Source: Demequina capsici
Lineage (GTDB): Bacteria > Actinomycetota > Actinomycetes > Actinomycetales > Demequinaceae
DNA length: 64,000 nt
Assembly: GCF_032102965.1 (NCBI RefSeq)
Contig: NZ_CP134880.1
Coordinates: 744,001-808,000 of the forward strand
Direction of reading: 5' to 3'
Position numbers and translations under genes: made by a program. Below are positions 44,866 through 56,686 of this stretch, piece after piece. The notes under the pieces are model-generated. The model searched no databases. It saw only the letters and a list, made by a program, of their open reading frames with translations, and was not told the DNA's origin. Position 1 is the first letter of the stretch. Each line of letters starts with the position of its first letter.

Positions 44866-44869
44866 ACGG

Positions 44870-44913
44870 CATCTTCTCGATTGGAATCGCAAGAATTCGC
44901 GATTGGGAAGATG
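44870..44913. repeat. Nested inverted repeats just behind tRNA-Lys
   Basis: Outer arms CATCTTC (44870-44876) and GAAGATG (44907-44913); inner arms AATCGC (44885-44890) and GCGATT (44899-44904). It could form a cruciform or act as the tRNA terminator. Its position 5 bp from the CCA makes a recombinase-related role conceivable. Confidence 0.5.
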
Positions 44914-45012
44914 AGTCAAGATTCAGGGCGGTTCGGTCACTCTAGACGGGTGGCGGGGCCGCCCTTAGTCGTATCTGCGGGGGATCGCGGCCTGATTGCT
45001 GCGGAAACGAGC

Positions 45013-45053
45013 ACGCCGGGATGGCGGAGCACATGGCTCCGCCACCCCGGCGT
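45013..45053. terminator. Strong hairpin after tRNA-Lys and the HIRAN gene
   Basis: An 18-bp stem starting ACGCCGGG (one A-C mismatch) and a 5-nt ACATG loop, followed on the plus strand by CGTTTCTTG. It lies between tRNA-Lys and the converging HIRAN gene and can end transcription from both. Confidence 0.75.
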
Positions 45054-45206
45054 CGTTTCTTGTGAAGTTCGGTGTCGGCTTGCGGGTTTACGCGGCCCTG
45101 GCAAACTTGCCGGGCGGCGCCGGCCTCTCGGGCCTGTCCTTGGAGGGGCCAAGCTTGCCTGCGATGCGGATCGGCAGATCCAAACGGGCGGGCGCGTCGC
45201 TTCCTC

Positions 45207-46415
45207 CTAGTCGTCCCACTCGTAGGTTGCGCGCGTGGGTCGGTTAAGGTCGACGGTCTTCGGGCCGAGCGATGCGAGCCACTCCTCGGACACGTCCTGA
45301 GCCTTCAGCGTGTCGAGCGTGACGTCTGCCTTGAGGGCGTTGCCCCTCAGGCCCGCGTGCGCTACCGCTGTCTGTCCGCGCTCTTCGACGAACTTCACTA
45401 GCGGCAGCAGGTTCGCCGACTGGGTGGGGGAGAGGATGCCGACGCGCTCCCCATCGATGCGCACCTCGACTGTCTCGGTCGCTGAGCGTGCGCGGATCTC
45501 GTGGATCGCGTGGAGCGTGACCGCCATCGTGACCGTGTCGCCATTGGTGTACTTCGTGAGGACATCCATGTGGTCCTCTTCCTTTGTCACCTGGATCTTC
45601 GCGCCACGCGGCAGGACAACGCCTTCACTCGGCGGTTGGTTGGCCGGCGCGATCTCGTCGGGACGCGGAAGTCTGACGGTCACGCGGGCTTTCCAGCCGC
45701 TCTGGCGGACAGCCGCCCAGACCCTTACTGGGACCTCGAGGTAGCCCCCGGCCCGCTCCACTTTGGCCAGCAGTGGCGCCCACCTGCGGGCCGTGTCGCG
45801 ATCGAAGTACCCGACGTGCTGCCCGCGCACCCACACTGCGACAGCGTGCGAGTCGTGGGGGTTGTCGAAGTCGGGCACGATCGCCGCGACGTCGTTGATC
45901 TGGCCGCCGTTGGAATCCGTGGGGATGCGTCCGCCGAACAGGGCGATGAATGCGTCGGGGTGGTAGGACTCGCCGACGACCTCGAGTTGGTCGCGGCACG
46001 CGCCCCACGGCTCAAGCGCTTCCCCTATCGGTGGCGGTGCGAGGTGGTTGCCATCCGGGGTCGTGGAGATGTGGACGGGCTGGAACGGCAGTGCCGCCTC
46101 GGCGGCTTCGCGCTGCTTCGCATTGCGCCGCGCGAGGTACCACACAGAGCCCGCGATGAGACCCAAGACGATCGCGACGAGAGCACCGCCCGGGCCGTCC
46201 TCGCTCGAGAGGTTCATCATCCCACCGAGGACCAAGACGATCCCGATCCACAGGGCGACCCCTCGGGATGAGCCGGTGCTGCCCGACCGGGCATCTGGAA
46301 GCCCATCGACCCGCTGGTGATGCTCGGTCCAGTCGTTGCCATCCCAGAAACGCACCTGCCCGCGCGACTCAGTCGTGTACCAGCCCGCGCGTGGCGCTAC
46401 CTGCCCCTCAGTCAT
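45207..46415 (-). CDS. DUF2510-membrane-HIRAN protein (402 aa)
   Basis: N-terminal DUF2510 motif (GWYTTESRGQVRFWDGNDWT, about 9-28), two adjacent hydrophobic segments (about 50-95), then a HIRAN domain (about 135-205: VVGESYHPDAF ... VPDFDNPHDSHAVAVWV ... VGYFDRDTARRWAPLL). The C-terminal region repeats a loosely HIRAN-like or OB-like pattern (VRIDGERVGILSPTQSANLLPLV). HIRAN domains bind damaged or 3'-ended DNA in helicases such as HLTF; membrane-linked actinobacterial versions are uncharacterised. ATG 46413-46415 has GAGGGG upstream. First gene of the island. Confidence 0.75.
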   Translation of the reverse strand: MTEGQVAPRAGWYTTESRGQVRFWDGNDWTEHHQRVDGLPDARSGSTGSSRGVALWIGIVLVLGGMMNLSSEDGPGGALVAIVLGLIAGSVWYLARRNAKQREAAEAALPFQPVHISTTPDGNHLAPPPIGEALEPWGACRDQLEVVGESYHPDAFIALFGGRIPTDSNGGQINDVAAIVPDFDNPHDSHAVAVWVRGQHVGYFDRDTARRWAPLLAKVERAGGYLEVPVRVWAAVRQSGWKARVTVRLPRPDEIAPANQPPSEGVVLPRGAKIQVTKEEDHMDVLTKYTNGDTVTMAVTLHAIHEIRARSATETVEVRIDGERVGILSPTQSANLLPLVKFVEERGQTAVAHAGLRGNALKADVTLDTLKAQDVSEEWLASLGPKTVDLNRPTRATYEWDD

Positions 46416-46605
46416 CACGTGCCCCTCAGTGTGTTGTCCCCACTTCGCACCATAGCCACGGGTCTCACAGTTGGGAAGGGGCGTCGGCGTTGGCGCGACT
46501 GCCCAGGCAGACATCGGCTCGCGTCAGTACTGCGTGTCAGTCCGGGGCGATACGCTCGGCGTTGCAGCCGGACATCGGCGGTGTTGAGGGAATCGAGGTG
46601 CGCAC

Positions 46606-47847
46606 ATGCTTGGGCTGTCCAACCGTGAGACCGCGCTCGCGCTGTGGATCGCGGTCATCGCCGTCGCAGTCCTCGCGACGCCCGGAGCGCGCAAGGTGCT
46701 CCCAGGCTTGGTCAAGCAGCTGGTCGCCTGGAAGATCCTTGTCCCGCTGACAACCTTCACCGCCTACATGGCGGCAGTGACGTGGTCAGCCGCGAAGCTC
46801 GGCTGGTGGGATTGGAGCCTGATCGGCCCCACGATCTTCTGGTTCCTTACCTCAGCGCTTGGCTTGTTTCTCAGTTCGAATGATGCGATCAAGAACAAGG
46901 CTCACTATCGACGCGTGATCGCAGGCACGATCGGGGGCCTGGCGCTCCTCGGGGTCCTCGCCGACTTGTACAGTTTCCCGCTGGGCTGGGAGTTCCTCCT
47001 GCAGGGCGCGATCGGATTCCTGGTGATGCTCAGCGCCGTCGCCGCACGCAAGGACGAGACCAAGGCCGTCGCCACCGGCAGCAATATCCTTGTCGGCGTT
47101 GTGGCTCTGGCGATTCTGGGATTCTCGCTCGTGCATCTCGTTGGAGACATCCGCGCAGGTGACATGGACTGGCTCGGCCTCGGCAGGGGAACCTTCCTGC
47201 CCATATGGATGACCGTCGCAGCAGCGCTGTTCCTGTGGCCGCTGTCGCTGATGATGGCGTACGAGAAGGCCTTCGTGTACCTCAAGATCGCGAAGCTCAC
47301 ACCTAGGCAGCGACGGCGGGCCAGGCTTGCGCTGCTGCTGGCCTGCGGGCCACGCACGACCCAGGTAGGGCGCGTCAACATGAACACGATGATCCGCATG
47401 GGCCGCGTCGAGAGCGTGCGCAGCTCGGTGGCGGAGTATCGCGTGTGGCGTGCCGAGCAAGACGAGAAGGAACGTCCGCTGCCGCCCGCGCAAGCCGAAG
47501 CGAAGGCGACGAGAGACGTGCTCACATGGATCTCGACCTGCCACATGGGCTGGCATCGAAGACGCGAAGGAACATACCGGCCTGACCTGATCGACATCCT
47601 CGACAAGGACTTCGTCAAGAAGGGCCTGCCCGACGACCACAGCATCGGCCACGAGGTCTCACCGGACGGCAAGGCCTGGCGTGCGTGGCGGCAGATGTCG
47701 GACGGCCGCTACGTCGGGATCGGGGCTGCGGAGATCCCACACGAGGAATGGCACTACGAGGGCGGCAACGCCCCTTCCGGCTTCCCGCCTGCAGCGGACT
47801 GGGTTGGGCCGTTGGCGTTCGCAGCCGAAGGCAGCTTCTGGGATTGA
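46606..47847 (+). CDS. Membrane protein of unknown function (413 aa)
   Basis: About seven transmembrane segments in the first 230 residues (for example ALALWIAVIAVAVLA and IWMTVAAALFLWPLSLM), then a basic cytoplasmic tail of about 180 residues with many Trp/His/Arg. No family recognised. A GTTGAGGGAATCGAGGT stretch precedes ATG 46606. Sits 69 bp upstream of the 805-aa gene on the same strand, so possibly an operon. Lower-GC codon use than the chromosome. Confidence 0.6.
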   Translation: MLGLSNRETALALWIAVIAVAVLATPGARKVLPGLVKQLVAWKILVPLTTFTAYMAAVTWSAAKLGWWDWSLIGPTIFWFLTSALGLFLSSNDAIKNKAHYRRVIAGTIGGLALLGVLADLYSFPLGWEFLLQGAIGFLVMLSAVAARKDETKAVATGSNILVGVVALAILGFSLVHLVGDIRAGDMDWLGLGRGTFLPIWMTVAAALFLWPLSLMMAYEKAFVYLKIAKLTPRQRRRARLALLLACGPRTTQVGRVNMNTMIRMGRVESVRSSVAEYRVWRAEQDEKERPLPPAQAEAKATRDVLTWISTCHMGWHRRREGTYRPDLIDILDKDFVKKGLPDDHSIGHEVSPDGKAWRAWRQMSDGRYVGIGAAEIPHEEWHYEGGNAPSGFPPAADWVGPLAFAAEGSFWD

Positions 47848-47916
47848 GCAACGGCTCTCGTCGCAGTCGACCGCTACTGTTCGAGGCATCAGTGCAGGTC
47901 AAAGGGGGGTGCACGC

Positions 47917-50334
47917 GTGGATGAGCCCGAGGTGATTCGCTTCTTCGCTGATCCCGTCAATGAAGCGCCAGTCGTGGAGCGCCACATGGCGCTCTTGGCG
48001 GAGATGCGCCTCGAAGGCGAGAACCATGCCGAATACGTGAATCGCATGCCCTCCTTCATTGAGGCGCAGTCTGGAGAGATCCGGCGTCTCACTGCCGACG
48101 CAGACGCGTTCGACGTCGTCGAGCTCCTGCGCATGTACGTCCAAGGCTTCGTGGTCAACGGAGCACTGACCGCAGCGGTCGACGGCATCGCAGGCGCGTT
48201 CCAGGTCGTTGCGACCTTGATGGCAGGTCGCGGCTACAGGGAGCCGGAACGTCCCCTGCCAGCACACGCCTTGGCCGCTGACATCCCACTGATCCACAAG
48301 ATGGCCGTCCAGATTCTCGTCGCCGCCGGCGCGGTCACGAGCGAGCTCGCAGAACGGGAACAGCACGGATCGCTGTCCAAACTCGCTGCCGACTACGCCC
48401 ATCAGCAACTGTCCGTGCACGTCCTGGGCTACCCGCACTACACGGACCAGATCGAGCGAGACATCTTCGACGGATTCGACGAAGACCTACGCAACACCGC
48501 GGGCTTCACGTACGCCGAGGCCATCATCGTGCGCGACACGATCACCGAGATCCTCAACGAGCGCTTCAACGCGTCCCTCCAAGGCGTTCCTGACCCAACC
48601 CCCGACGACGACGGGCGCGTTCCATTCGAGCGGCTGTGGGATCACGTGACATCTCCGAGCCACCTGACGGCGCGGCCCGCTCAGCGGTGTTCCGTGACAG
48701 CGTGCGAGGTCGCGGCCCGAGCACGGCTTCCTGTTGCCGTCGTCGGCGCGATCATGGACGCCTTCGCTATCGAACTCGCGGCAGACGACGTGGGCATCAG
48801 CCTCCTGCAGCACCACCTCGACGCGACGGAGCCGGTACGAGGCAAGCAACTGCTCAAGCACGGCGAAACGTATGCCTCGATCGGGCTCCCACTCGGCTCA
48901 GGCTCGCTGAGACTGCACCTCGAAGATCCACTGAAGGCAGACGCGAAGACGTGGAGAAAGTTCCAGCGTCACCGTGGTGCAGTGTGTGAGCGCGAAGCGG
49001 TACGCCACATCAGCCAGCTGATCCGGAGCGACCCTGCCCACACGAACGTGGAGTACTACTTCCCCAAGGACGGAATGCCTGCCACCGCGCTGGGGCGATC
49101 CTGCGCCGACCCGGCGAAGGTCGGTGAAACGGCGGAGGCGGATGCGCTCTACGTCGTCGAGGACGTCGCCTTGTGTGTGGAAGCCAAGGGCCGCTCGGTG
49201 TCCGTCCAAGCGAAAGCTGGTCACGTACAGCGCCTCACCCGAGACCTCAAGCAGATCGTGGGCGACGGAGTCCGTCAGGCCTCGCGCCTTGAGGAACTGA
49301 TCGAAGTCAACGGTGGCCTATGGCTCGGAAACCGTACCTGGCTAGACCTGTCACAGATCCGAGAGATCCGCTCCATCGTCGTCTCCCTCGATCACGTCGC
49401 ACCGCTCGCGGCCGCAGGCAGCGAGCTCGTCCGCGCCAACGTGATCAGCAGCGACCGCTTCGCCTGGGTGACATCCCTGCACGACCTCGCGGTCATCGCC
49501 GACGTCCTCGACCGTCCCGCAGAGTTCCTGCTGTACCTACGACGCCGCACCGAACGCGCGGTCGCCCTGAAGTGCTCCGCCCTCGACGAACTCGACATGC
49601 TGATGGCGTTCCTCGCTGGCGACCTCGTCACCCCGACCGACCCGACGGAACTCCACGAGAAGTGCCCGCATATCGATCCGCCTACGCAGGCCCAGCTCGA
49701 CCAGTACAGGCTCGACACCGCGCCGACGGTCATCAGTACCTACACCCAGCCGCTCGACGCCTGGGAGAGCCAATTCGAGAAGTGGGCCTACAGCACGTTT
49801 CCCAAGCCGACCTTCCGCGCGAACCCACGGATTCTCAAGATCGTCGACTTCCTTCTGGCCGGCTTCAAACCAGGTTGGCTGCGCGCGTCGGCGGACCTCC
49901 TCAACCTCTCAATGCACATGCAGGTGCACGTCGCCGGCTCGATCAAGCGGGTGCTCCAGGCGACGCGAGCAGACGGCCGCTCGCACAACTTGGCCATCGT
50001 CCAGCCGAACCCCTGGGGTTTCCCTCTTCTGGCGGTGTTCACGTGCCCGACGCAAGGAGACTTCCCGTACGCGCTCGACGCCCTCGACAAGTACGCGTCA
50101 GCCAAGGCCGCACAGTTCGGTGCTGATCGCGCGCTGGGAGTCATGTACAGCGCACGAGGCGCGGTCATCGCTGTCCGCTACGTCTCCGATCCCGCCACGT
50201 CGGGAGTCGACAACTTTGCGGCCGCCGCTGAACTGGGCCTTGACGCGGCTCTCGCGGCAAACGCGAGCCTGCCCCCGTCCGCGCGACGATCGACGCGCAG
50301 GCTCCGAGGCGAGCGTCGAGACCGACGGCGCTGA
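47917..50334 (+). CDS. Large protein with PD-(D/E)XK nuclease-like motif (805 aa)
   Basis: No full-length family recognised. Around residues 405-425 the sequence EADALYVVEDVALCVEAKG has the spacing of a PD-(D/E)XK nuclease core: an acidic residue before a strand (D in EAD), a hydrophobic strand, then ExK (EAK). The N-terminal half is helical; the C-terminal tail is very basic (RRLRGERRDRRR), fitting nucleic-acid contact. No membrane segments. GTG 47917 has AAAGGGGGG upstream. It may be a nuclease effector of the island or a stand-alone anti-phage protein. It lies 152 bp before the AAA+/TIR operon. Confidence 0.55.
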   Translation: MDEPEVIRFFADPVNEAPVVERHMALLAEMRLEGENHAEYVNRMPSFIEAQSGEIRRLTADADAFDVVELLRMYVQGFVVNGALTAAVDGIAGAFQVVATLMAGRGYREPERPLPAHALAADIPLIHKMAVQILVAAGAVTSELAEREQHGSLSKLAADYAHQQLSVHVLGYPHYTDQIERDIFDGFDEDLRNTAGFTYAEAIIVRDTITEILNERFNASLQGVPDPTPDDDGRVPFERLWDHVTSPSHLTARPAQRCSVTACEVAARARLPVAVVGAIMDAFAIELAADDVGISLLQHHLDATEPVRGKQLLKHGETYASIGLPLGSGSLRLHLEDPLKADAKTWRKFQRHRGAVCEREAVRHISQLIRSDPAHTNVEYYFPKDGMPATALGRSCADPAKVGETAEADALYVVEDVALCVEAKGRSVSVQAKAGHVQRLTRDLKQIVGDGVRQASRLEELIEVNGGLWLGNRTWLDLSQIREIRSIVVSLDHVAPLAAAGSELVRANVISSDRFAWVTSLHDLAVIADVLDRPAEFLLYLRRRTERAVALKCSALDELDMLMAFLAGDLVTPTDPTELHEKCPHIDPPTQAQLDQYRLDTAPTVISTYTQPLDAWESQFEKWAYSTFPKPTFRANPRILKIVDFLLAGFKPGWLRASADLLNLSMHMQVHVAGSIKRVLQATRADGRSHNLAIVQPNPWGFPLLAVFTCPTQGDFPYALDALDKYASAKAAQFGADRALGVMYSARGAVIAVRYVSDPATSGVDNFAAAAELGLDAALAANASLPPSARRSTRRLRGERRDRRR

Positions 50335-50486
50335 CAGAACGCCTGGTTGAGTCCGTTTGTCCGGTCCATTCGGTAGCGACCCGAGGGGGCCTCAATGGCA
50401 GCAACAGTTTCCTGACCGCCTGGTTGTGCTCCGACGGCGGCGTGTCCGGGGGCACCTGTGTCAGAGGTCTGTGATCTCATCCCTAT

Positions 50487-51353
50487 ATGACTTTCGCAGA
50501 TCCAGGATCGACGTCGAGCCAGACCATTCCGGACCGATTTTCCCATGCCGTCAATGAGCACCTAGTTTTCAACTTCGCCGGTATTGAGTCTTGGCCACTT
50601 GTGTTGGGGATATTCGGTAGGCCCGGTGACGGTAAGAGTTTCCAGCTGCGCAGGCAGTTGGAACAGGCGGGTGTGCTGCCGATCTCAATTAACGCGGCGG
50701 ACTTGGAGAGCGATCGCGCGGGGTTGCCAGGGAAACTCGTGCTTGAGAAGTACGAGGACGCGGGGCACCGCATCGGTGAGGGCACCCCCGCCACACTTGT
50801 GGTCGACGATTTCGATACGACAGTCGGGGAGTGGGCGCAAAGCACGACCACGGTGAATCATCAGCAGGTCCTCGCTCAGCTCATGCACTTGGCAGACAGC
50901 CCAACGCAAGCCGGCGGAAAGAGCCTCCGCCGCGTGCCCGTCGTGATCACTGGAAATGATCTGTCGAAGGTGTACCCCCCGCTTCGAAGGCCAGGGCGGA
51001 TGCGCGCATTCCCGTGGCTACCCACCCATGAAGAGCGCCTCGAAATCGTGACTGGAATCCTCGGCGCGGTCCTTGCTCCAAGCAGTATCGAGCTGCTCCT
51101 TCGAGAGTTGCCCGATGCCCCAATCGCCTTCTTCTCCGACTTGTACGTGGACATTCTCGCCCGAGCGGCGGAAGATGAAGTGCGTCGAGCAGCGGGGTCG
51201 CTCGGGGCATTGATACAACCGCGAAGCACTGCCCGAGGGGAACTGGAGAGCAGACTCGCGAACAACAATCTGCGGGCCGAGGAGATTCACTCGCTTGCGC
51301 TGAGCGTCTGGAACGAGCGCTCGATCGCGACGCAATCGTACGTTGGGGGATGA
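50487..51353 (+). CDS. AAA+ ATPase related to RuBisCO activase (288 aa)
   Basis: Walker A GRPGDGKS (44-51), Walker B TLVVDDFD (103-110), sensor-1 ITGND (154-158) and an arginine-finger region RRPGRMR (167-173). Beyond these generic motifs, several stretches match RuBisCO activase: GKSFQ after Walker A, ADLESDRAGLPGKL (activase: GELESxxAGEPxxL), VNHQQVLAQLMHLADSPT (activase: VNNQxVxxxLMNxADNPT), and VPVVITGNDLSKVYPPLRRPGRM (core TGNDLS, activase TGNDFSTLYAPLIRDGRM). No carbon-fixation gene is nearby. It probably remodels a neighbouring protein. First gene of the five-gene operon; its stop overlaps the next start (ATGA). Confidence 0.82.
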   Translation: MTFADPGSTSSQTIPDRFSHAVNEHLVFNFAGIESWPLVLGIFGRPGDGKSFQLRRQLEQAGVLPISINAADLESDRAGLPGKLVLEKYEDAGHRIGEGTPATLVVDDFDTTVGEWAQSTTTVNHQQVLAQLMHLADSPTQAGGKSLRRVPVVITGNDLSKVYPPLRRPGRMRAFPWLPTHEERLEIVTGILGAVLAPSSIELLLRELPDAPIAFFSDLYVDILARAAEDEVRRAAGSLGALIQPRSTARGELESRLANNNLRAEEIHSLALSVWNERSIATQSYVGG

Positions 51354-51883
51354 GGATTGCCGTGAGCACGTATACGTATTCCTACGCCTACACGCGCGCA
51401 CAGGCTCTCGTAGACCAGGTTGACGTGCTGTTTACCGCGGCCGGGATCGACCAAGGAGCCACCGCAAAGGTCTGCTTCGGCGTCAACCAGAAGTGGTTGA
51501 CTGCGGTCGGTCTCTATCTGAGCCGCGACGGCAACCGCGTGTACGAGGTTGAAGCGCGGATCAACTGGGCTGCTCACTCTGACCGCGCCACGCTCGACTT
51601 CTCAACAGATCTTCCGGGCTGGGACGGGACTGCATCACCTGAAGCCTCGATCTTGGGAGCGCGCTTCGCTGCAAGAGCCCGTGACCAGGGCCTCGCGCCG
51701 CACTACTGGGTTCGTTTCACGACCGAAATCACAGCAGATCCGGCACGGCACAGTGAACTGTGCCCCAAGGTAGGAGTCAGTTACGGCAGTCATCCTCCCG
51801 AATGGCGCAAGTCGCCGTCCGAATCAACGATCCGGCTCCAGGACCTCGGCGAAGTCGGGCTATCAGAGCGCAGTGCGCTTTAG
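51350..51883 (+). CDS. Unknown protein, possibly HORMA-like (177 aa)
   Basis: Translationally coupled to the AAA+ gene (ATGA), which makes it the likely client. It begins with a Ser/Thr/Tyr-alternating strand (AVSTYTYSYAYTRAQALVDQV), then has strands KVCFGVNQKWLTAVGLYL and RVYEVEARINW, and ends with a tail containing SESTIRLQDLG. This resembles bacterial HORMA proteins, which open with a similar S/T/Y strand and helix and are opened by TRIP13-type AAA+ ATPases through their tails. The similarity is a pattern match only; no family could be confirmed. No membrane segment or enzyme motif. Confidence 0.5.
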   Translation: MRIAVSTYTYSYAYTRAQALVDQVDVLFTAAGIDQGATAKVCFGVNQKWLTAVGLYLSRDGNRVYEVEARINWAAHSDRATLDFSTDLPGWDGTASPEASILGARFAARARDQGLAPHYWVRFTTEITADPARHSELCPKVGVSYGSHPPEWRKSPSESTIRLQDLGEVGLSERSAL

Positions 51884-51898
51884 GCGAGAGGCTCCAAA

Positions 51899-52447
51899 AT
51901 GGCACGCAACATCTTCCTGTCCTTCCACCAGGCCGACGAACTCGAAGTGAACATCTGGCGAAGGCGCTTCGGAGGGTACTTCAATGAGATTCGCAGTCTC
52001 GGTCTCAGTGAGTACGGAGATGACTTCGCTGACCACATCGAAAGCGGTGACAGCGACTACGTCATGCGCAAGATCCGCGAGGACAAGATCGCTGGTACGT
52101 CATGCACGGTGGTACTCATAGGCAAGTGCACTTGGGCACGTCGTTACGTGGACTGGGAGATAGCGGCGACGCTACGAAACTTCAATGACAGCCAGCGCGG
52201 TGGACTTATCGCAGTGCAGTTGCCCGGCGCGCAGGACAACGGCTGGTCGAAGCTGCCCCCGCGCCTGGACCTCAATGTCGAGAGGGACAACGGCGTCGAC
52301 GTGGGCTATGCGCGGTTCTATCCTCCAGCTCCGAGTGACGGCACTATTGCGCAATGGGTGGAGGACGCTGTCGCTCGACGTGACACGCTAGACCCAGCGA
52401 CCGGCTCGACAACCGGGCTGATGGTAAGAAGCCGCTCCTGCGAGTGA
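51899..52447 (+). CDS. TIR-like protein, ThsB/DUF1863 type (182 aa)
   Basis: Starts at once with the TIR-like first strand NIFLSFH (4-10), followed by MRKIREDKIAGTSCTVVLIGKCTWARRYVDWEI (motifs VVLIG 71-75, W79, and Glu87 in DWEI). That order, strand-SFH, a basic helix, TxVVLIG, then WxxYVDWEI, is that of ThsB of Thoeris (DUF1863), where the late glutamate belongs to the NAD+-processing site. It should make an NAD-derived signal on activation. 15 bp after the previous gene; GGCTCCAA lies directly before its ATG. Confidence 0.82.
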   Translation: MARNIFLSFHQADELEVNIWRRRFGGYFNEIRSLGLSEYGDDFADHIESGDSDYVMRKIREDKIAGTSCTVVLIGKCTWARRYVDWEIAATLRNFNDSQRGGLIAVQLPGAQDNGWSKLPPRLDLNVERDNGVDVGYARFYPPAPSDGTIAQWVEDAVARRDTLDPATGSTTGLMVRSRSCE

Positions 52448-52491
52448 CATCGCATGACTCCTAGACACCAACTTGAGGGGAGCGGCTCCAA

Positions 52492-53715
52492 GTGACTGTA
52501 GCGCCACCGATTCTCGACGTTTTCGTGGTTTGGCATCCAGACGATGTCGAAGGTCGCGAACGCTTCACTGAGATACATGAGCACTTCCACAGTCCAGCGT
52601 TCTCCGGTCTCGCAGGCGGAGCGGTTGAAGTGTACGGACGCAGCGAGCCGTGGACAGACGGTAGCGCACCACGCCCTTTTGGTATCGAAGAGCCTCTTTG
52701 TGAGGGTCTCCCCGCCGCACAGTTCAACATGATCGTGGTTGTTGTCGACGCGAACCTGCTCCGCGCCGGTGCCGACCCAGGTAACCCGTGGAATGCATAC
52801 CTTCACGAGATAGTCCGGCTGAGGAAGGATCACGGCGTCGGGGTGTTTCCGATCATTGCGGAAGGGCTGAACTGGGAGACCAGCGTCGTGGGCGCGATCC
52901 TTGGTGAAGTTCAGAGCCTTCCGCAGGCTGTGAGCAGGGACCGCGGGTTGCTCGGACGCGAGCTCGCACAGGCGATATCTCAGCAGATCCGGGGGAGAGC
53001 GGGGTTGTCTGAGCGACTGACGGTGTTCGTCAGTCACACCAAGCATGGTTCACTAGCGGAGGCAAAGGATGTAGGTCCGGCGATGTACGAACACGTACGA
53101 GACTTCATCCAGAGCTCGCACCTGTCGGCCTTCTTCGATGCGCAGGACATTCAGCCCGGTGACGCTTGGGCCGACACGCTCGAGCAGGCCGCTGCCAGCA
53201 GTGCGCTACTGATGATTCGCACCGATGTGTACGCCGCCCGTGAGTGGACTCAGCGCGAGGTTTGCACGGCGAAGCGCAGCGGCATGCCGGTCGTTTGCAT
53301 GCATGCGCTGACTGCGGGTGAGGAGCGGGGCTCCTTCCTCATGGACCACGTTCCGTCAGTAGTGAGTCACTTGGGTGACCCCGGACCTGGAGTCGCACGC
53401 GCTCTCAATCGGCTGGTGGATGAGACACTCAAGTACACCCTCTGGCGAGCGCAGACTTCGTATCTGTCCGACCACGGCTTCGACTGGCTTCCGGCCCAAT
53501 CCCCCGAGCCGACCACTCTTGCCCCTTGGTTGATTGCGCACCAAGAGGTTGCCCCGGACGACAAGCATCTCTGGGTGATACACCCTGACCCACCGCTCGG
53601 CGAAGCCGAGCGCGAAGTCCTGCTGGAACTATGCGCGATGGCTGGCTTCAAGGTTGACGTGGACATCCTGACTCCACGGACATTCGCCGCTCGCGGCGGA
53701 GAGCTCAAGAGATGA
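52492..53715 (+). CDS. Tandem TIR-domain protein (407 aa)
   Basis: Residues about 7-140 look like a divergent TIR fold (ILDVFVVWHPDD ... QFNMIVVVVDANLL). Residues about 176-280 are a clear TIR domain: LTVFVSHTKHG, AFFDAQDIQPGDAWADTLEQAAASSALLMIRTDVYAAREWTQREV; the W252-x3-E256 pair matches the catalytic glutamate region of NAD+-cleaving TIRs. The last about 55 residues (HLWVIHPDPPLGEAEREVLLEL ... DILTPRTFAARGG) look like a segment that precedes SLOG domains in related proteins. GTG 52492, preceded by GAGGGG and GGCTCCAA. Its stop overlaps the SLOG gene (ATGA). Confidence 0.78.
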   Translation: MTVAPPILDVFVVWHPDDVEGRERFTEIHEHFHSPAFSGLAGGAVEVYGRSEPWTDGSAPRPFGIEEPLCEGLPAAQFNMIVVVVDANLLRAGADPGNPWNAYLHEIVRLRKDHGVGVFPIIAEGLNWETSVVGAILGEVQSLPQAVSRDRGLLGRELAQAISQQIRGRAGLSERLTVFVSHTKHGSLAEAKDVGPAMYEHVRDFIQSSHLSAFFDAQDIQPGDAWADTLEQAAASSALLMIRTDVYAAREWTQREVCTAKRSGMPVVCMHALTAGEERGSFLMDHVPSVVSHLGDPGPGVARALNRLVDETLKYTLWRAQTSYLSDHGFDWLPAQSPEPTTLAPWLIAHQEVAPDDKHLWVIHPDPPLGEAEREVLLELCAMAGFKVDVDILTPRTFAARGGELKR

Positions 53716-54542
53716 CCGAGCCGGCCCTCATCCCGCAGGACGCGCTCTCATCTCGGAGAATCGCCCTTTCTGTCTCCGAGAGCGCCGACCTAGCGCGTCT
53801 TGGACTCAATGAGCAGCACTGTCGGCTGGTTGTTGCTGAGGTGAGCAGAGCGATCATGCTTGCAGGGGGAACCGTCGTGTACGGGGGCCACCTCGGTGTC
53901 GGCGGCTACACGGAGATACTCATTGATGAAGCTCAGCGCTTCGGTGGTGGGCGTCCCGTCCTGGAGATCGCACTTCCCGAGTCCGAGTATCGCAAGTTGA
54001 ATGCGTCCGACTTGATCAGGGCCGATCGGAGGCTCGGCGAAGTCGGCCAACTGACGTTGGTGACGGAGCTCGGATATGCCGTCGGGATCGGCAGCGCGTT
54101 CGATAGCGATTGGTCTCTTGACGCGGCGAGAGCACTCACTGCGATGCGGGCGCGGGTTGCGCGCGAGACCACGGCTCGACTTATCGTTGGGGGTCGCCTC
54201 GTGAACTACGCCGGTACCGAGCCCGGTGTCATCGAGGAAGCTCGACTCACGGTTGAAGCCGACAAATTGCTTCTTGCTGCGGGCGGCTACGGAGGTGCGT
54301 CAGCCGCGGTCGCGCGTGAGCTCTACCCTCAGTCCGTCGACGGATGGTTTCCACAGGTTTTTCCGGCGCATGCCGACGATCCCAGGGTCGCTGCCGCACT
54401 TGACGCGCTGCGGCAGTCTCGGGACGGATCGTCCGCGGAGTATGACCTTGACGAGGGACTTCTGCGGCTCCTGACGAACAGCCACAGGCCGGCTGACATC
54501 GCAGTTGCCGCGGTACGACTTCTGTCGGGCCTCGCGGACTGA
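53712..54542 (+). CDS. Stand-alone SLOG-domain protein (276 aa)
   Basis: Rossmann-like SLOG fold, family of LOG/DprA-type nucleotide-binding proteins. Visible: IALSVSESADLARLGLNEQH at the start, the glycine motif VYGGHLGVGGYTEIL (56-70), a second half with LIVGGRL and the closing LLAAGGYGGAS. SLOG domains bind NAD-derived or nucleotide signals; in Thoeris ThsA the SLOG domain senses the cyclic-ADP-ribose isomer made by the TIR protein. Here it has no fused effector, although a short C-terminal helical part (about 215-276) follows. Last gene of the operon; a terminator lies 207 bp beyond. Confidence 0.78.
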   Translation: MTEPALIPQDALSSRRIALSVSESADLARLGLNEQHCRLVVAEVSRAIMLAGGTVVYGGHLGVGGYTEILIDEAQRFGGGRPVLEIALPESEYRKLNASDLIRADRRLGEVGQLTLVTELGYAVGIGSAFDSDWSLDAARALTAMRARVARETTARLIVGGRLVNYAGTEPGVIEEARLTVEADKLLLAAGGYGGASAAVARELYPQSVDGWFPQVFPAHADDPRVAAALDALRQSRDGSSAEYDLDEGLLRLLTNSHRPADIAVAAVRLLSGLAD

Positions 54543-54926
54543 GTATCGGATTGCGCGGAGGTATCGCGCGGTCCGCCCTCGTTGCCCACTCCTGAGCAGT
54601 GCGCTGACCTGGCGGCCACGAGATGGGCTGGGCACACCGAGCTCCGTGCTGCGGAGTGTGGAGAAGAATTCGAGGTTCCACGGAGAAGAAGCTTTGGAGC
54701 CCCGGTATCCACCCTGGTAGTTCCCAAACGCGAACACACCACCAACATCGAAGGCCCGGTCCGAATGGACCGGGCCTTCGTGCATGTTCGGCATGTTCCG
54801 CGTCGGGTGCCGGGCCCCGAAGCAGGGGCCGTGGCGCAGGGCCGGCGGTTCCGGGGTGATCTGCGTCGCGACGGCGCCGGTCGCGGAAGCAGCGTTGTTC
54901 ATGCGCCGCAGCCCGGTGCGCGGCGG
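54543..54926. other. Right junction of the island, 384 bp without a gene
   Basis: No convincing coding frame and no copy of the tRNA-Lys 3' end. Composition is mixed, with AT-richer pieces such as GAAGAATTCGAGG and GAAGAAGCTTTGG. A perfect hairpin at 54749-54780 closes it; chromosomal genes resume at 54927. Confidence 0.6.
54749..54780. terminator. Perfect 14-bp hairpin at the right edge of the island
   Basis: CGAAGGCCCGGTCC with its exact complement and a GAAT loop. It can terminate the defence-type operon from the left and the alpha/beta-hydrolase gene from the right. Similar CGAAGGCCCG hairpin arms recur at 56576. Confidence 0.85.
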
Positions 54927-55802
54927 TCAGGCGGCGGTACTGTTCCCGTCGTGGCGAGCGGCGAACTCCAACGCCGTGTCGGCCACGGTCCTCCAGCCCG
55001 AGTCGATGACCAGCGAGTGGCCGCGTCCCGGGATCTCGACGAACTCGGTGGCTGCCTCGTTGCGGGACTGGAGGCGGTACGCGGCGTGCGAGACCGCGCG
55101 CGGCACGATGTTGTCGCGCTCGCCCGAGATCACGAGCAGTGGGCCGCGGGCCGGGTTGCGGGTGTCGACGCGGGTCGCGGTTCCCCGGGTGAAGTTCGCG
55201 GTTGCGGCCTGGAACAGGGGTCGGCCGGGGGCTGCGACGTGGAACATGTCGTAGAGGTCGTGCGCCTCGTCCTCCTCCACAGAGTTCGCGAATCCGTACC
55301 TGAACTCGTCGAAGGACAGGGTGACCGTGCGCTTCCTGTTCGCAGGGTTGCCCAGCACAGGCGACGCCGCCTTCAGCGTCGAGGCGGGCAGCGGGAGCAC
55401 GCCCTTGAAGGGTGCCGGGTCGATGGCCACGGTGGCGGCGGCGAGTCCGAGGTCTGCGATGCGCTGCGCGAGCAGGCCTCCGAAGGAGTGCCCGATCACC
55501 ACGGGGCGGCGGTGAAGCGCGGAGGCGATCTCGGCGATGTGGTCGGTGACCTCCTGGACGCCCACTCCTGCGAAGGAGCCGGGGTTCGTGCGGGCGTCGG
55601 CGACGTTGGCGGGCTCCTGCGGCCATTCGGCGGCGACGACGGCGTAGCCGGCGTCCTCCAGGTGGTCGCGCCAGGCGTCCCAGCTTCCTGCGAGCAGCCA
55701 GAGTCCGTGGATCAGCACGGCGGCGGGGCGGGCCGAAGCGTTGGCCTGCGCGATCTGGTCGAGCTCGCGTGCGGTGAGGGTGGTGGTCGTGGTGGTGTTC
55801 AT
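54927..55802 (-). CDS. Alpha/beta hydrolase (291 aa)
   Basis: Hydrolase fold with nucleophile elbow GHSFGG (serine), oxyanion region VLIHGLWLLAGSW, and late acid/histidine in SGERDNIV and PGRGHSLV. The N-terminus is Thr-rich. No signal peptide. It is divergent from a tetR gene over two related operators, so it is probably induced by a small compound that it hydrolyses. ATG 55800-55802; GGACAGCACC precedes it, a weak ribosome-binding site. Confidence 0.88.
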   Translation of the reverse strand: MNTTTTTTLTARELDQIAQANASARPAAVLIHGLWLLAGSWDAWRDHLEDAGYAVVAAEWPQEPANVADARTNPGSFAGVGVQEVTDHIAEIASALHRRPVVIGHSFGGLLAQRIADLGLAAATVAIDPAPFKGVLPLPASTLKAASPVLGNPANRKRTVTLSFDEFRYGFANSVEEDEAHDLYDMFHVAAPGRPLFQAATANFTRGTATRVDTRNPARGPLLVISGERDNIVPRAVSHAAYRLQSRNEAATEFVEIPGRGHSLVIDSGWRTVADTALEFAARHDGNSTAA

Positions 55803-55870
55803 GGTGCTGTCCTTGTCGGGATGGGCCGTGGCCGGCCGGGATGTCCTGGTCGGTCGACCTGGACGCGTGA

Positions 55871-55886
55871 GAGAACGACCGTTCTC
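55871..55886. promoter_or_regulatory. TetR operator 1
   Basis: GAGAACG-AC-CGTTCTC, a perfect 7+2+7 inverted repeat in the divergent hydrolase/tetR region. It contains the core AACGAYCGTT shared with the site at 55941. Confidence 0.65.
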
Positions 55887-55940
55887 GCTTGTTTCATTCC
55901 CGATTCGTCGAGATCGACGCTCAGGGCATGAATCGGGGGT

Positions 55941-55950
55941 AACGATCGTT
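55941..55950. promoter_or_regulatory. TetR operator 2
   Basis: AACGATCGTT, a perfect palindrome directly upstream of the TAGCGT -10 box (55955-55960) of the tetR gene, 67 bp from the matching core of operator 1. Position fits autorepression. Confidence 0.55.
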
Positions 55951-55967
55951 CTGGTAGCGTGAGCAAG

Positions 55968-56534
55968 ATGACAGCACCAGGCGGCGTCAGCACGGATCCG
56001 CGCGAGCGTCTCGCGTCGACCGCGTCGGACCTCTTCTACAGGGAGGGGATCCACTCCGTCGGAGTGGACAGGATCCTCGCCGAGGCCGGCATGTCCCGGG
56101 CCACCATGTACCGCCACTTCGGCGGCAAGGAGGACCTGGTGGTGGCGTACCTGCAGCGTGAGGACGCCCTGATCCGCGCCCAGGTCGCCTCGGCGGACGC
56201 GGATGGCGGGCTGTTGAGGGCGGCGGTCCACGGGATCGCCGACGATGTGGAGCGGCGGCACACTCGTGGCTGCCCCTTCATCAACGCCGCGGCGGAGTAC
56301 CCCGACGAGGCGAGTGCGGTGCGGCGGCTCATCGCCACCCACCGTGCCTGGTTCCGGGGCGCGCTCACCCAGGCGGCTGCGGCCGCGGGCGTCGCCGATC
56401 CTGAACGGGTGGCGGGAGCTCTCATGATGCTGCGCGACGCAGCCCTCGTGGGCGGTTACCTCGACGGCGCGGCTTCGATCCGCTCGGCGTTCCTGGACGC
56501 AGCGTCGGCGGTGTCAGGGGTGGACCTCACGTGA
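55968..56534 (+). CDS. TetR-family regulator (188 aa)
   Basis: HTH: HSVGVDRILAEAGMSRATMYRHFGGKEDLV. The C-terminal domain has RGCPFINAAAEYPD, typical of the TetR group that controls hydrolases and oxidoreductases. ATG 55968 is preferred over GTG 55959 because the -10 box TAGCGT (55955-55960) overlaps the GTG; a transcript would start at the ATG, leaderless. It should repress itself and the divergent hydrolase. Confidence 0.9.
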   Translation: MTAPGGVSTDPRERLASTASDLFYREGIHSVGVDRILAEAGMSRATMYRHFGGKEDLVVAYLQREDALIRAQVASADADGGLLRAAVHGIADDVERRHTRGCPFINAAAEYPDEASAVRRLIATHRAWFRGALTQAAAAAGVADPERVAGALMMLRDAALVGGYLDGAASIRSAFLDAASAVSGVDLT

Positions 56535-56575
56535 CCGCCGCGCCGGGCCATCTGGGCCGGCGCAGCGCGGCATGA

Positions 56576-56609
56576 CGAAGGCCCGACTCCCCCGGGGGTC
56601 GGGCCTTCG
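56576..56609. terminator. Terminator between tetR and the osmoprotectant operon
   Basis: A near-continuous palindrome: CGAAGGCCCGAC pairs with GTCGGGCCTTCG around a C/G-rich tip. It lies between the converging tetR gene and the binding-protein gene. Confidence 0.8.
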
Positions 56610-56686
56610 TGGTGGTCGGTACGCCGTCTCGGCGATCCGACGGGGCGCCTCCCGGCGAGCCCGCGCGTCCTTGGTGCGGCGTGGCG

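Follow-up and report, generated by a model that had tools for sequence, protein, structure and literature searches.

What could a bacterial operon do that sets a predicted HORMA protein and an AAA+ ATPase beside two TIR proteins and a SLOG protein? In eukaryotes, HORMA proteins and TRIP13 control the checkpoints of mitosis and meiosis, and bacterial HORMA proteins with TRIP13 control the CD-NTases of CBASS. The five genes studied here, from Demequina capsici, are of interest because known bacterial HORMA switches pair with another alarm enzyme and another ATPase. We propose, with our confidence evenly divided for and against, that the operon is an anti-phage suicide circuit in which the HORMA protein and the ATPase would gate the small TIR protein, the SLOG protein would read the resulting signal, and the long TIR protein would kill. 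We infer the function of this circuit throughout, building on parts that come from sequence, i.e., the gene linkage, the ATPase family, both catalytic glutamates, the unit of SLOG and long TIR, and the split ancestry of the operon.

Gene content and organization of the operon

All positions are given within the window, the whole stretch of 64,000 nt that we analyzed (assembly GCF_032102965.1, contig NZ_CP134880.1, positions 744,001-808,000, forward strand). An earlier note on this DNA had placed five open reading frames on the plus strand at 50487..54542, and we could verify coordinates and strand for all of them:

50487..51353, + strand: RuBisCO-activase-like AAA+ ATPase, 288 aa (Pfam AAA, 45.7 bits; best PDB matches RuBisCO activase)
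51362..51883, + strand: predicted HORMA-fold protein, 173 aa, or 177 aa from ATG 51350 (AF2 model and Foldseek; start from homologues)
51899..52447, + strand: small ThsB-like TIR, 182 aa, with putative catalytic Glu87 (Pfam ThsB_TIR, PDB 6lhy, position of the glutamate)
52492..53715, + strand: long TIR, 407 aa (Pfam TIR_2; W252/E256 in 20 aligned rows)
53712..54542, + strand: SLOG cluster-2 protein (LD_cluster2), 276 aa (PF18163; 4 bp overlap with the long TIR gene; fusions)

The spacing is as read before, with an ATGA in which the stop codon of the ATPase gene overlaps the earliest start available to gene 2, gaps of 15 bp (genes 2/3) and 44 bp (genes 3/4), and an ATGA overlap of genes 4 and 5 that is kept in 4/4 loci compared. 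However, the start of gene 2 is most likely GTG 51362 and not ATG 51350, because a length of 173 aa is found in 60 of the 71 listed homologue clusters and those that were aligned begin at the GTG 51362 residue. The first ATGA is therefore more likely part of a ribosome-binding stretch than a coding overlap.

All five genes recur in the same order and with near-identical spacing in three other actinobacterial genomes (L001, L002, and L037), which together with the window are all readable loci that hold the HORMA gene. The absence of any consensus promoter match for the operon would fit a group of chance neighbors, but we find this hardly credible because order and spacing are kept in 4/4 loci. 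HORMA and ATPase clusters also share contigs: the longest-contig size of 22 of the 44 HORMA clusters on contigs of at least 3 kb matches that of an ATPase cluster, compared to at most 2 of 44 with sizes shifted. Homologues of the operon genes thus do co-occur elsewhere, a point that the earlier note had left to be checked.

An activase-like ATPase and a predicted HORMA protein

The ATPase carries a Walker A motif (GRPGDGKS), a D-x-D Walker B motif (VVDDFD), and the motif GRM..F.W past sensor 1. Its initial description as activase-like agrees with a single-sequence search of the PDB, in which the three best sequences are RuBisCO activases (122-136 bits, E=1.2e-38) and the next AAA protein scores 42 bits, and a profile search gives the same picture (RuBisCO activases at 163-166 bits, E=1.6e-47; next AAA protein at 46.6 bits). 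TRIP13 is absent from the best 60 of the 97 PDB matches to this profile, and with RuBisCO activases so far ahead in both searches we reject a TRIP13-type identity. Judged by sequence relationship, the protein belongs to the RuBisCO activase family. It shares with the activases of plants and cyanobacteria the AAA+ core over residues 22-238, including GRM..F.W and the D-x-D Walker B motif, but its operon partner is a HORMA protein and its genome has no RuBisCO match—the large subunit (PF00016) was not found there by a search that was positive in 5 of 14 genomes as a control, and we reject a RuBisCO-related role on these grounds. Homologues of the ATPase form 347 clusters, and no relatives were detected in plasmids at E 1e-10.

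Sequence models do not recognize gene 2, with no match in Pfam, PADLOC, NCBIfam, or PHROGs and neither a HORMA protein nor anything else meaningful when its profile was compared to PDB sequences. The top Foldseek matches of its AF2 model (pLDDT 77) are bacterial HORMA proteins, and we therefore predict a HORMA fold, in support of what had been proposed as a HORMA-like candidate. Both ends of the protein (residues 1-10 and 160-173) are conserved and predicted to be disordered. No relatives were found in plasmids, viral contigs, or phages, and among sampled genomes (phylum, 396; family, 47; order, 396) a match came from its own genome only. In the phylum and order searches, scoring was limited to 8 candidates per genome, and the genome-wide scan recovers close relatives only because its query was one sequence.

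Two different TIR proteins and a SLOG partner

The small TIR protein was rightly called ThsB-like, with 60.7 bits for Pfam ThsB_TIR (PF08937; cut-off 21.2) and a match to B. cereus ThsB (PDB 6lhy, E=2.6e-4), and it is the sole protein of the operon matched by PADLOC (2023), as ThsB with 42.6 bits. A glutamate at the catalytic position is kept in 14/14 aligned small TIRs and also in a fifteenth row, which is a piece of a long TIR (L014). No candidate for a closure motif was seen by eye in the aligned C-terminal tail of the small TIR.

The long TIR protein consists of an N-terminal half (residues approximately 1-165), a TIR domain (approximately 172-335, with Trp252/Glu256), and a conserved C-terminal linker. 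The description "tandem TIR" is supported by its second half, which matches Pfam TIR_2 (31.9 bits, cut-off 28) and the profile of the small TIR (probability 97%), but gains no support from the first half, which matches neither TIR profile (probability 0.7%). A search of the PDB by sequence returned nothing meaningful. W252 and E256 are invariant in 20/20 aligned long TIRs, and the protein is a predicted NADase. Loss of catalytic residues, which the earlier note had considered as evidence against its model, is not what the alignments indicate, as both TIR proteins keep the glutamate.

The SLOG assignment of gene 5 is borne out by 139.8 bits for PF18163 (cut-off 25.3), while its match to STALD (Sir2- and TIR-associating SLOG) stays at 17.8 bits under a cut-off of 24 and its sequence finds nothing meaningful in the PDB. 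We could not uphold the view that it stands alone: its gene overlaps that of the long TIR, and the two proteins are fused in 13 relatives found (six listed homologues of 678-690 aa, L016-L018, and L030-L033), on which grounds we rejected a free-standing SLOG reader. Judging from the fusions, SLOG is one half of a long TIR/SLOG unit, so that a role of the long TIR as effector is more likely than one as a second signal maker, contrary to the idea that both TIRs produce signals. Single-sequence queries found neither SLOG nor the long TIR in viral contigs.

The extra N-terminal half of the long TIR could also mean that this protein senses infection, as staphylococcal ThsB1 does, and enlists the small TIR to act as a cyclase in the manner of ThsB2; SLOG would then be an effector or signal-acting enzyme, and HORMA and ATPase would set the threshold. 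A precedent for this division of labor is described for Sau-Thoeris, where ThsB1 binds the capsid protein with its putative active-site residues 242 and 318 being dispensable, while signal production falls to ThsB2 (putative active-site residues 6 and 81; PMC12578639), and another paper proposes a role of SLOG on ribosyl N-glycosidic bonds (PMC9503650). Nevertheless, we consider a sensor function unlikely given that the long TIR is fused in its relatives to SLOG, the ligand-binding half of the Thoeris effector, that Glu256 never varies in the alignment, and that the operon has no further killing domain according to Pfam.

Split ancestry and apparent exchange of modules

The closest relatives of the first three genes of the window operon lie elsewhere than those of the last two. 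Compared to L001, identity is 78% for the ATPase, 83% for HORMA, and 87% for the small TIR versus 53% for the long TIR and 51% for SLOG. In a tree of long TIRs that omitted P0257 (99% identical to the L037 protein and tied to HORMA by an equal-size contig), the window protein groups with P0193 and P0194 (100/99) and falls outside a clade of six others (100/100), three of which come from read HORMA loci and three of which are tied to HORMA by equal-size contigs. An AU test likewise rejects its joining L001/L002/P0256 (p=1.3e-5). Modules appear to swap between loci, since the long TIR that accompanies the ATPase, HORMA, and small TIR genes of the window belongs to another clade than in their relatives.

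Long TIR and SLOG without HORMA or ATPase occur from E. coli to cyanobacteria, including 19 of the 23 loci compared, where absence means no tblastn match to the window proteins at E 1e-3 and may miss distant versions. This sample is uneven, as L001 and L002 were retrieved via HORMA, L008-L012 and L014-L022 via SLOG, L013 via the DNA of a relative, and L030-L033, L036, and L037 via the long TIR. Seven of the 19 loci (L008, L010, L011, L013, L014, L021, and L036) have a MazG_C/Nmad2/HMUDK cassette; there, nucleotide-modification-type genes lie near the same long TIR-SLOG unit in place of HORMA and ATPase.

That so many loci lack a HORMA/ATPase match would also suit an assembly or safety device in which these two proteins keep the TIRs folded, apart, or silent while infection is sensed elsewhere, e.g., by the N-terminal half of the long TIR. 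We view this possibility with doubt, because the ATPase-HORMA pair is as close to its relatives as the small TIR is, unlike the effector pair, and because the different cassette near other loci fits alternative inputs.

Comparison with known defense systems

Thoeris type I combines a ThsB TIR with ThsA, a SIR2-SLOG protein. The operon shares the ThsB-like small TIR and the link of a SLOG domain to a predicted NADase, but here a TIR would take the NADase role, HORMA and the activase-like ATPase come in addition, and SLOG is a separate LD_cluster2 gene with STALD under its cut-off. Pfam matched SIR2 in none of the five proteins, as previously stated, and without a ThsA that has SIR2 and SLOG we reject membership in this type. 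The "Thoeris type III" of NCBIfam, for which a literature search that could not reach most subscription journals found no paper, is a distant relative as judged from sequence scores: the TIR of its ThcB4 model weakly matches the long TIR (29.8 bits, cut-off 220), and ThcA does not match the window SLOG but weakly matches 4 of the 15 family SLOGs (three relatives' SLOGs at 19-23 bits versus 110). Membership is rejected with both models so far below their curated cut-offs.

CBASS type III (CD-NTase, HORMA, and TRIP13) resembles the operon in that a HORMA-fold protein is encoded next to an AAA+ ATPase and to an enzyme that makes a signal or is predicted to do so, but here this enzyme would be a TIR and the ATPase one of the RuBisCO activase family. 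The claim that no CD-NTase is present stands for the SMODS family (PF18144), which has no match in the genome (control positive in 3 of 14 named genomes, 2 of them over the cut-off), and CBASS is rejected accordingly. The same literature search, again short of most subscription journals, found no description of the five-gene composition, in agreement with the earlier impression of an undescribed system and with PADLOC matching gene 3 only.

A candidate circuit and its implications

In the proposed circuit, HORMA would close on a phage or host peptide and, once closed, license the small TIR to make an NAD-derived signal of the ADP-ribose type. The ATPase would act on the conserved N-terminal tail of HORMA and reopen it, keeping the circuit off. 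SLOG would bind the signal of the small TIR and switch on the long TIR, which would deplete NAD and stop the infected cell. For Thoeris, two papers describe a SLOG domain that binds the signal produced by a TIR and turns on an NADase (PMC11204291, PMC10022894).

If so, HORMA checkpoints would not be bound to CD-NTases and TRIP13: a HORMA switch run by the activase family would gate second-messenger signaling by TIR and act as a plug-in module on the input side, recombining with various long-TIR/SLOG effectors, with sister loci using the nucleotide-modification cassette, a generalization that we think could equally turn out right or wrong. This would place one branch of the RuBisCO activase family in bacterial immunity. 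HORMA remodeling may proceed without TRIP13, and the operon ATPase may bear on the origin of plant and cyanobacterial RuBisCO activase. Finding HORMA beside a non-TRIP13 AAA+ protein and TIR in all four readable loci suggests that HORMA conformational switching is a transferable input to immune signaling. It becomes testable whether an activase relative remodels HORMA, whether HORMA licenses TIR enzymes, and whether TIR systems are built from swappable input and effector cassettes.

The operon as cargo of a genomic island

Two further features concern the surroundings of the operon:

44866..54748, no strand assigned: genomic island carrying the operon (between tRNA-Lys and the hairpin; empty site in L039; G+C)
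54749-54781, + strand: hairpin claimed as operon terminator (fold z -6.2; beside tRNA-Lys in one congener)

The single terminator ascribed to the operon is indeed a hairpin 3' of it (fold of the 56 nt at 54735-54790, -33.3 kcal/mol, z -6.2), but it starts 207 nt past the last stop codon and we found no T run there. In L039, the only congener compared, the site is empty and this hairpin recurs (97% over 33 bp) at a distance of 4 bp past tRNA-Lys. Because of this position, it is probably the terminator of tRNA-Lys that was displaced by an insertion of approximately 9.9 kb (44866-54748). The island has a G+C content of 63.6% compared to 70.2% in the remaining window. No integrase was found among the eight island proteins scanned, and the window holds no second copy of the tRNA-Lys 3' end with up to 3 mismatches allowed.

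Location on a tRNA island, together with a weak conjugation-like match beside L037 (TrbL/VirB6, 21.9 bits under a cut-off of 25.9), might suggest a stress or signaling module without anti-phage role, e.g., a toxin-antitoxin-like or plasmid-competition device. We judge this quite improbable, as ThsB-type TIRs, SLOG domains, and bacterial HORMA proteins are all contained in known anti-phage systems. Moreover, the earlier note had asked about proximity to known defense genes, and defense-like genes are seen near three relatives, with a KwaB-like gene near L001, a type IIG RM system near L036, and an AriA-like gene near L013.

Organization and conservation of the operon

The five plus-strand ORFs that an earlier note had placed at 50487-54542 are present and form a real and conserved operon, a variant made of known parts.

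Genes of the operon (50487-54542, + strand, ORF reading), with Pfam matches
Gene 1, AAA+ ATPase, 288 aa: AAA, 45.7 bits, above cut-off
Gene 2 (predicted HORMA fold), 177 or 173 aa: no match
Small TIR, ThsB-like, 182 aa: ThsB_TIR, 60.7 bits, above cut-off
Long TIR, 407 aa, 52492-53715: TIR_2, 31.9 bits, above cut-off
SLOG protein, 276 aa: LD_cluster2 (SLOG), 139.8 bits, above cut-off

A genome scan with the HORMA gene matched two actinobacterial loci, L001 and L002, each with all five genes, and a search with the long TIR added a third such locus, L037. The HORMA gene is rare, occurring in its own genome only among 396, 47 and 396 sampled genomes. When 44 HORMA clusters were set against 119 of the 347 ATPase clusters by the length of the longest contig, 22 had a partner of equal length; set against 119 of the 784 long-TIR clusters, 4 did. 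With shifted lengths, either comparison gave at most 2. Junctions measure 8 (counted from GTG 51362), 15, 44 and -4 bp in the window, 8/15/42/-4 bp in L001, 6/14/43/-4 bp in L002 and 10/14/41/-4 bp in L037. The ATGA overlaps proposed earlier thus hold for long TIR and SLOG in all four HORMA loci, but gene 2 probably does not begin at the ATGA of the first junction, since 60 of 71 homologue clusters are 173 aa long and the aligned homologues begin with the residue encoded by GTG 51362.

By homology, gene 1 is a member of the RuBisCO activase family, in line with its original description. Its top three PDB matches in a single-sequence search are RuBisCO activases (E 1e-38 to 2e-34, 122-136 bits; next AAA protein only 42 bits), and a profile of 24 homologues gives activases 163-166 bits and the next AAA protein 47 bits, with TRIP13 not found among the best 60 of 97 matches. 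The organism's own genome (one contig, 3.08 Mb) yielded no match to the RuBisCO large subunit and none to SMODS nucleotidyltransferases, the latter agreeing with the reported lack of a CD-NTase.

A genomic island at tRNA-Lys

The operon has 61.4% G+C, the island stretch around it 63.6% and the remainder of the window 70.2%. In G437, the one congener compared, a hairpin follows tRNA-Lys after 4 bp (L039:3354-3466), and the same hairpin lies in the window at 54749-54781, 9.9 kb away from tRNA-Lys. This points to an island at 44866-54748 that separates tRNA-Lys from its probable terminator; the hairpin once assigned to the operon probably belongs to the tRNA instead. Neither a second copy of the tRNA end in the window nor an integrase among the scanned island proteins was found. 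The right flank also differs from G437: L039, the congener's locus, gives no DNA match to 54782-56680, where genes of alpha/beta hydrolase and TetR-like type lie. Three further genes lie in the island:

45207-46514, -: HIRAN + DUF2510 protein, 435 aa
46606-47847: 413-aa protein of no clear family, adjoining the HIRAN gene
47917-50334: 805-aa protein, closely preceding the operon

The 805-aa protein is without a match in Pfam, PADLOC, NCBIfam and PHROGs. None of the three proteins was matched in L001, L002 or L037, and the five genes are therefore the conserved unit of the island.

TIR proteins and the long TIR-SLOG unit

The description of the small TIR as ThsB-like is borne out by its Pfam score and by the match of residues 1-96 to Bacillus cereus ThsB (6lhy, E 2.6e-4). 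Glu87 is kept in all 14 small TIRs aligned and also in the fifteenth row, a long-TIR piece from L014. The reading of the long TIR as a tandem TIR is half supported: its second half matches the small TIR profile (97% probability), but its first half matched neither TIR profile (0.7%). Trp252 and Glu256 are kept in 20 of 20 aligned long-TIR rows. Residues 1-165 form a conserved N-terminal half, and residues 336-407 a conserved C-terminal block (HPDPPLG...TPRTFA.RGG) ahead of SLOG.

The SLOG protein does not stand alone as first supposed; judged by gene arrangement, it is one unit with the long TIR. The two genes overlap by 4 bp in all four HORMA loci, and among the 120 long-TIR homologues listed of 784, at least six, of 678-690 aa and 55-70% identity, also carry PF18163. 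Single-ORF fusions are annotated in Gloeothece, Aureispira and Priestia and occur in four actinobacterial genomes. A long-TIR match, partial in length in L014, L017, L020 and L022 and split by an IS3 element in L014, adjoins SLOG in 13 of the 14 loci for which SLOG was the sole query (L008-L012, L014-L022). The core version on an E. coli chromosome (L013:6121-10024; hits H14-H29) comprises two small TIRs, long TIR and SLOG. A Klebsiella query matched in some part 39 of 5426 genomes, none over more than 80% of its length, and the 16 best of the 20 matches listed reach 71% coverage, spanning long TIR and SLOG, with 71% identity.

Apparent exchange of inputs and effectors

Among 23 distinct loci compared, 3 have all five genes, and 19 have long TIR and SLOG but match neither HORMA nor ATPase. 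The last, L012, lacks a long TIR and has a small TIR together with a weak SLOG. MazG_C, Nmad2 or HMUDK genes are found in 7 of the 19 (L008, L010, L011, L013, L014, L021, L036) and in none of the four HORMA loci, and would be a second kind of input cassette, perhaps concerned with modified thymidine nucleotides; the remaining 12 yielded neither cassette with these queries. HMUDK is a 5-hmdU DNA kinase helical domain. L014 and L021 also carry a uracil-DNA glycosylase, and L013 a thymidylate synthase.

Window and L001 share 78/83/87% identity in the first three genes and 53/51% in the last two, for which L001 and L037 share 67/58%. In the long-TIR tree, which carries a long-branch warning for L010, L011 and P0273, the window groups with P0193 (a Microbacterium MAG) and P0194 (Glaciibacter superstes; support 100/99), whose longest-contig sizes are absent among HORMA clusters. 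L001, L002 and L037 form one clade (100/100) with P0247, P0250 and P0256, which equal-sized longest contigs tie to HORMA. Joining the window with L001/L002/P0256 was rejected (p=1.3e-5) in a test picked after the identities were known. The ATPase tree sets the window, L001, L002 and P0082 apart from L037 (92/95). Neither the HORMA tree (p=0.06) nor the ATPase tree (p=0.19) alone rejects the opposite grouping, so the apparent swapping of inputs and effectors rests on the effector tree and the identities.

Proposed mechanism and relation to known systems

In type I Thoeris, a TIR produces a cyclic ADP-ribose signal that is bound by the SLOG domain of a SIR2-SLOG fusion, the SIR2 part being an NADase (PMC11204291 and PMC10022894). 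The operon's SLOG is tied to a TIR instead, which makes the long TIR the likely effector, a predicted NADase, and the small TIR the likely source of the signal. The long TIR could alternatively be the sensor, a role modelled on Sau-Thoeris (PMC12578639). The HORMA-ATPase pair is conserved to the small TIR's degree. In 2020, Ye et al. reportedly described a TRIP13-HORMA pair regulating cGAS-like enzymes. The bacterial TRIP13-HORMA pair is described as a conformational threshold switch (PMC7159879), and from this switch and the shared conservation we propose that closed HORMA would activate the small TIR and the activase-like ATPase would reset HORMA.

NCBIfam (June 2026) holds Thoeris type III models, ThcB4 and ThcA. 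The long TIR reaches 29.8 bits against a ThcB4 cut-off of 220, the relatives' SLOGs from E. coli, Klebsiella and Priestia score 19-23 bits where the cut-off is 110, and 4 of 15 aligned SLOGs match to some extent, the window's SLOG not at all. The long TIR-SLOG core is thus distantly related to an already catalogued entry. A literature search with most subscription journals outside its scope found neither a publication on Thoeris type III nor a description of HORMA, TIR and SLOG as one system or of the HORMA/activase input; PMC7159879 alone contained all three terms.

At the relatives' loci, a KwaB-like gene (L001:8894-9841, -; PADLOC 45.6 bits) adjoins the five genes in a Leifsonia MAG, the operon of L002 is directly preceded by a remnant of a C5 cytosine methylase comprising its C-terminal part (L002:6627-6911), and a type IIG restriction enzyme (L036:1120-3981; PADLOC 964 bits) is close to HMUDK and long TIR-SLOG.
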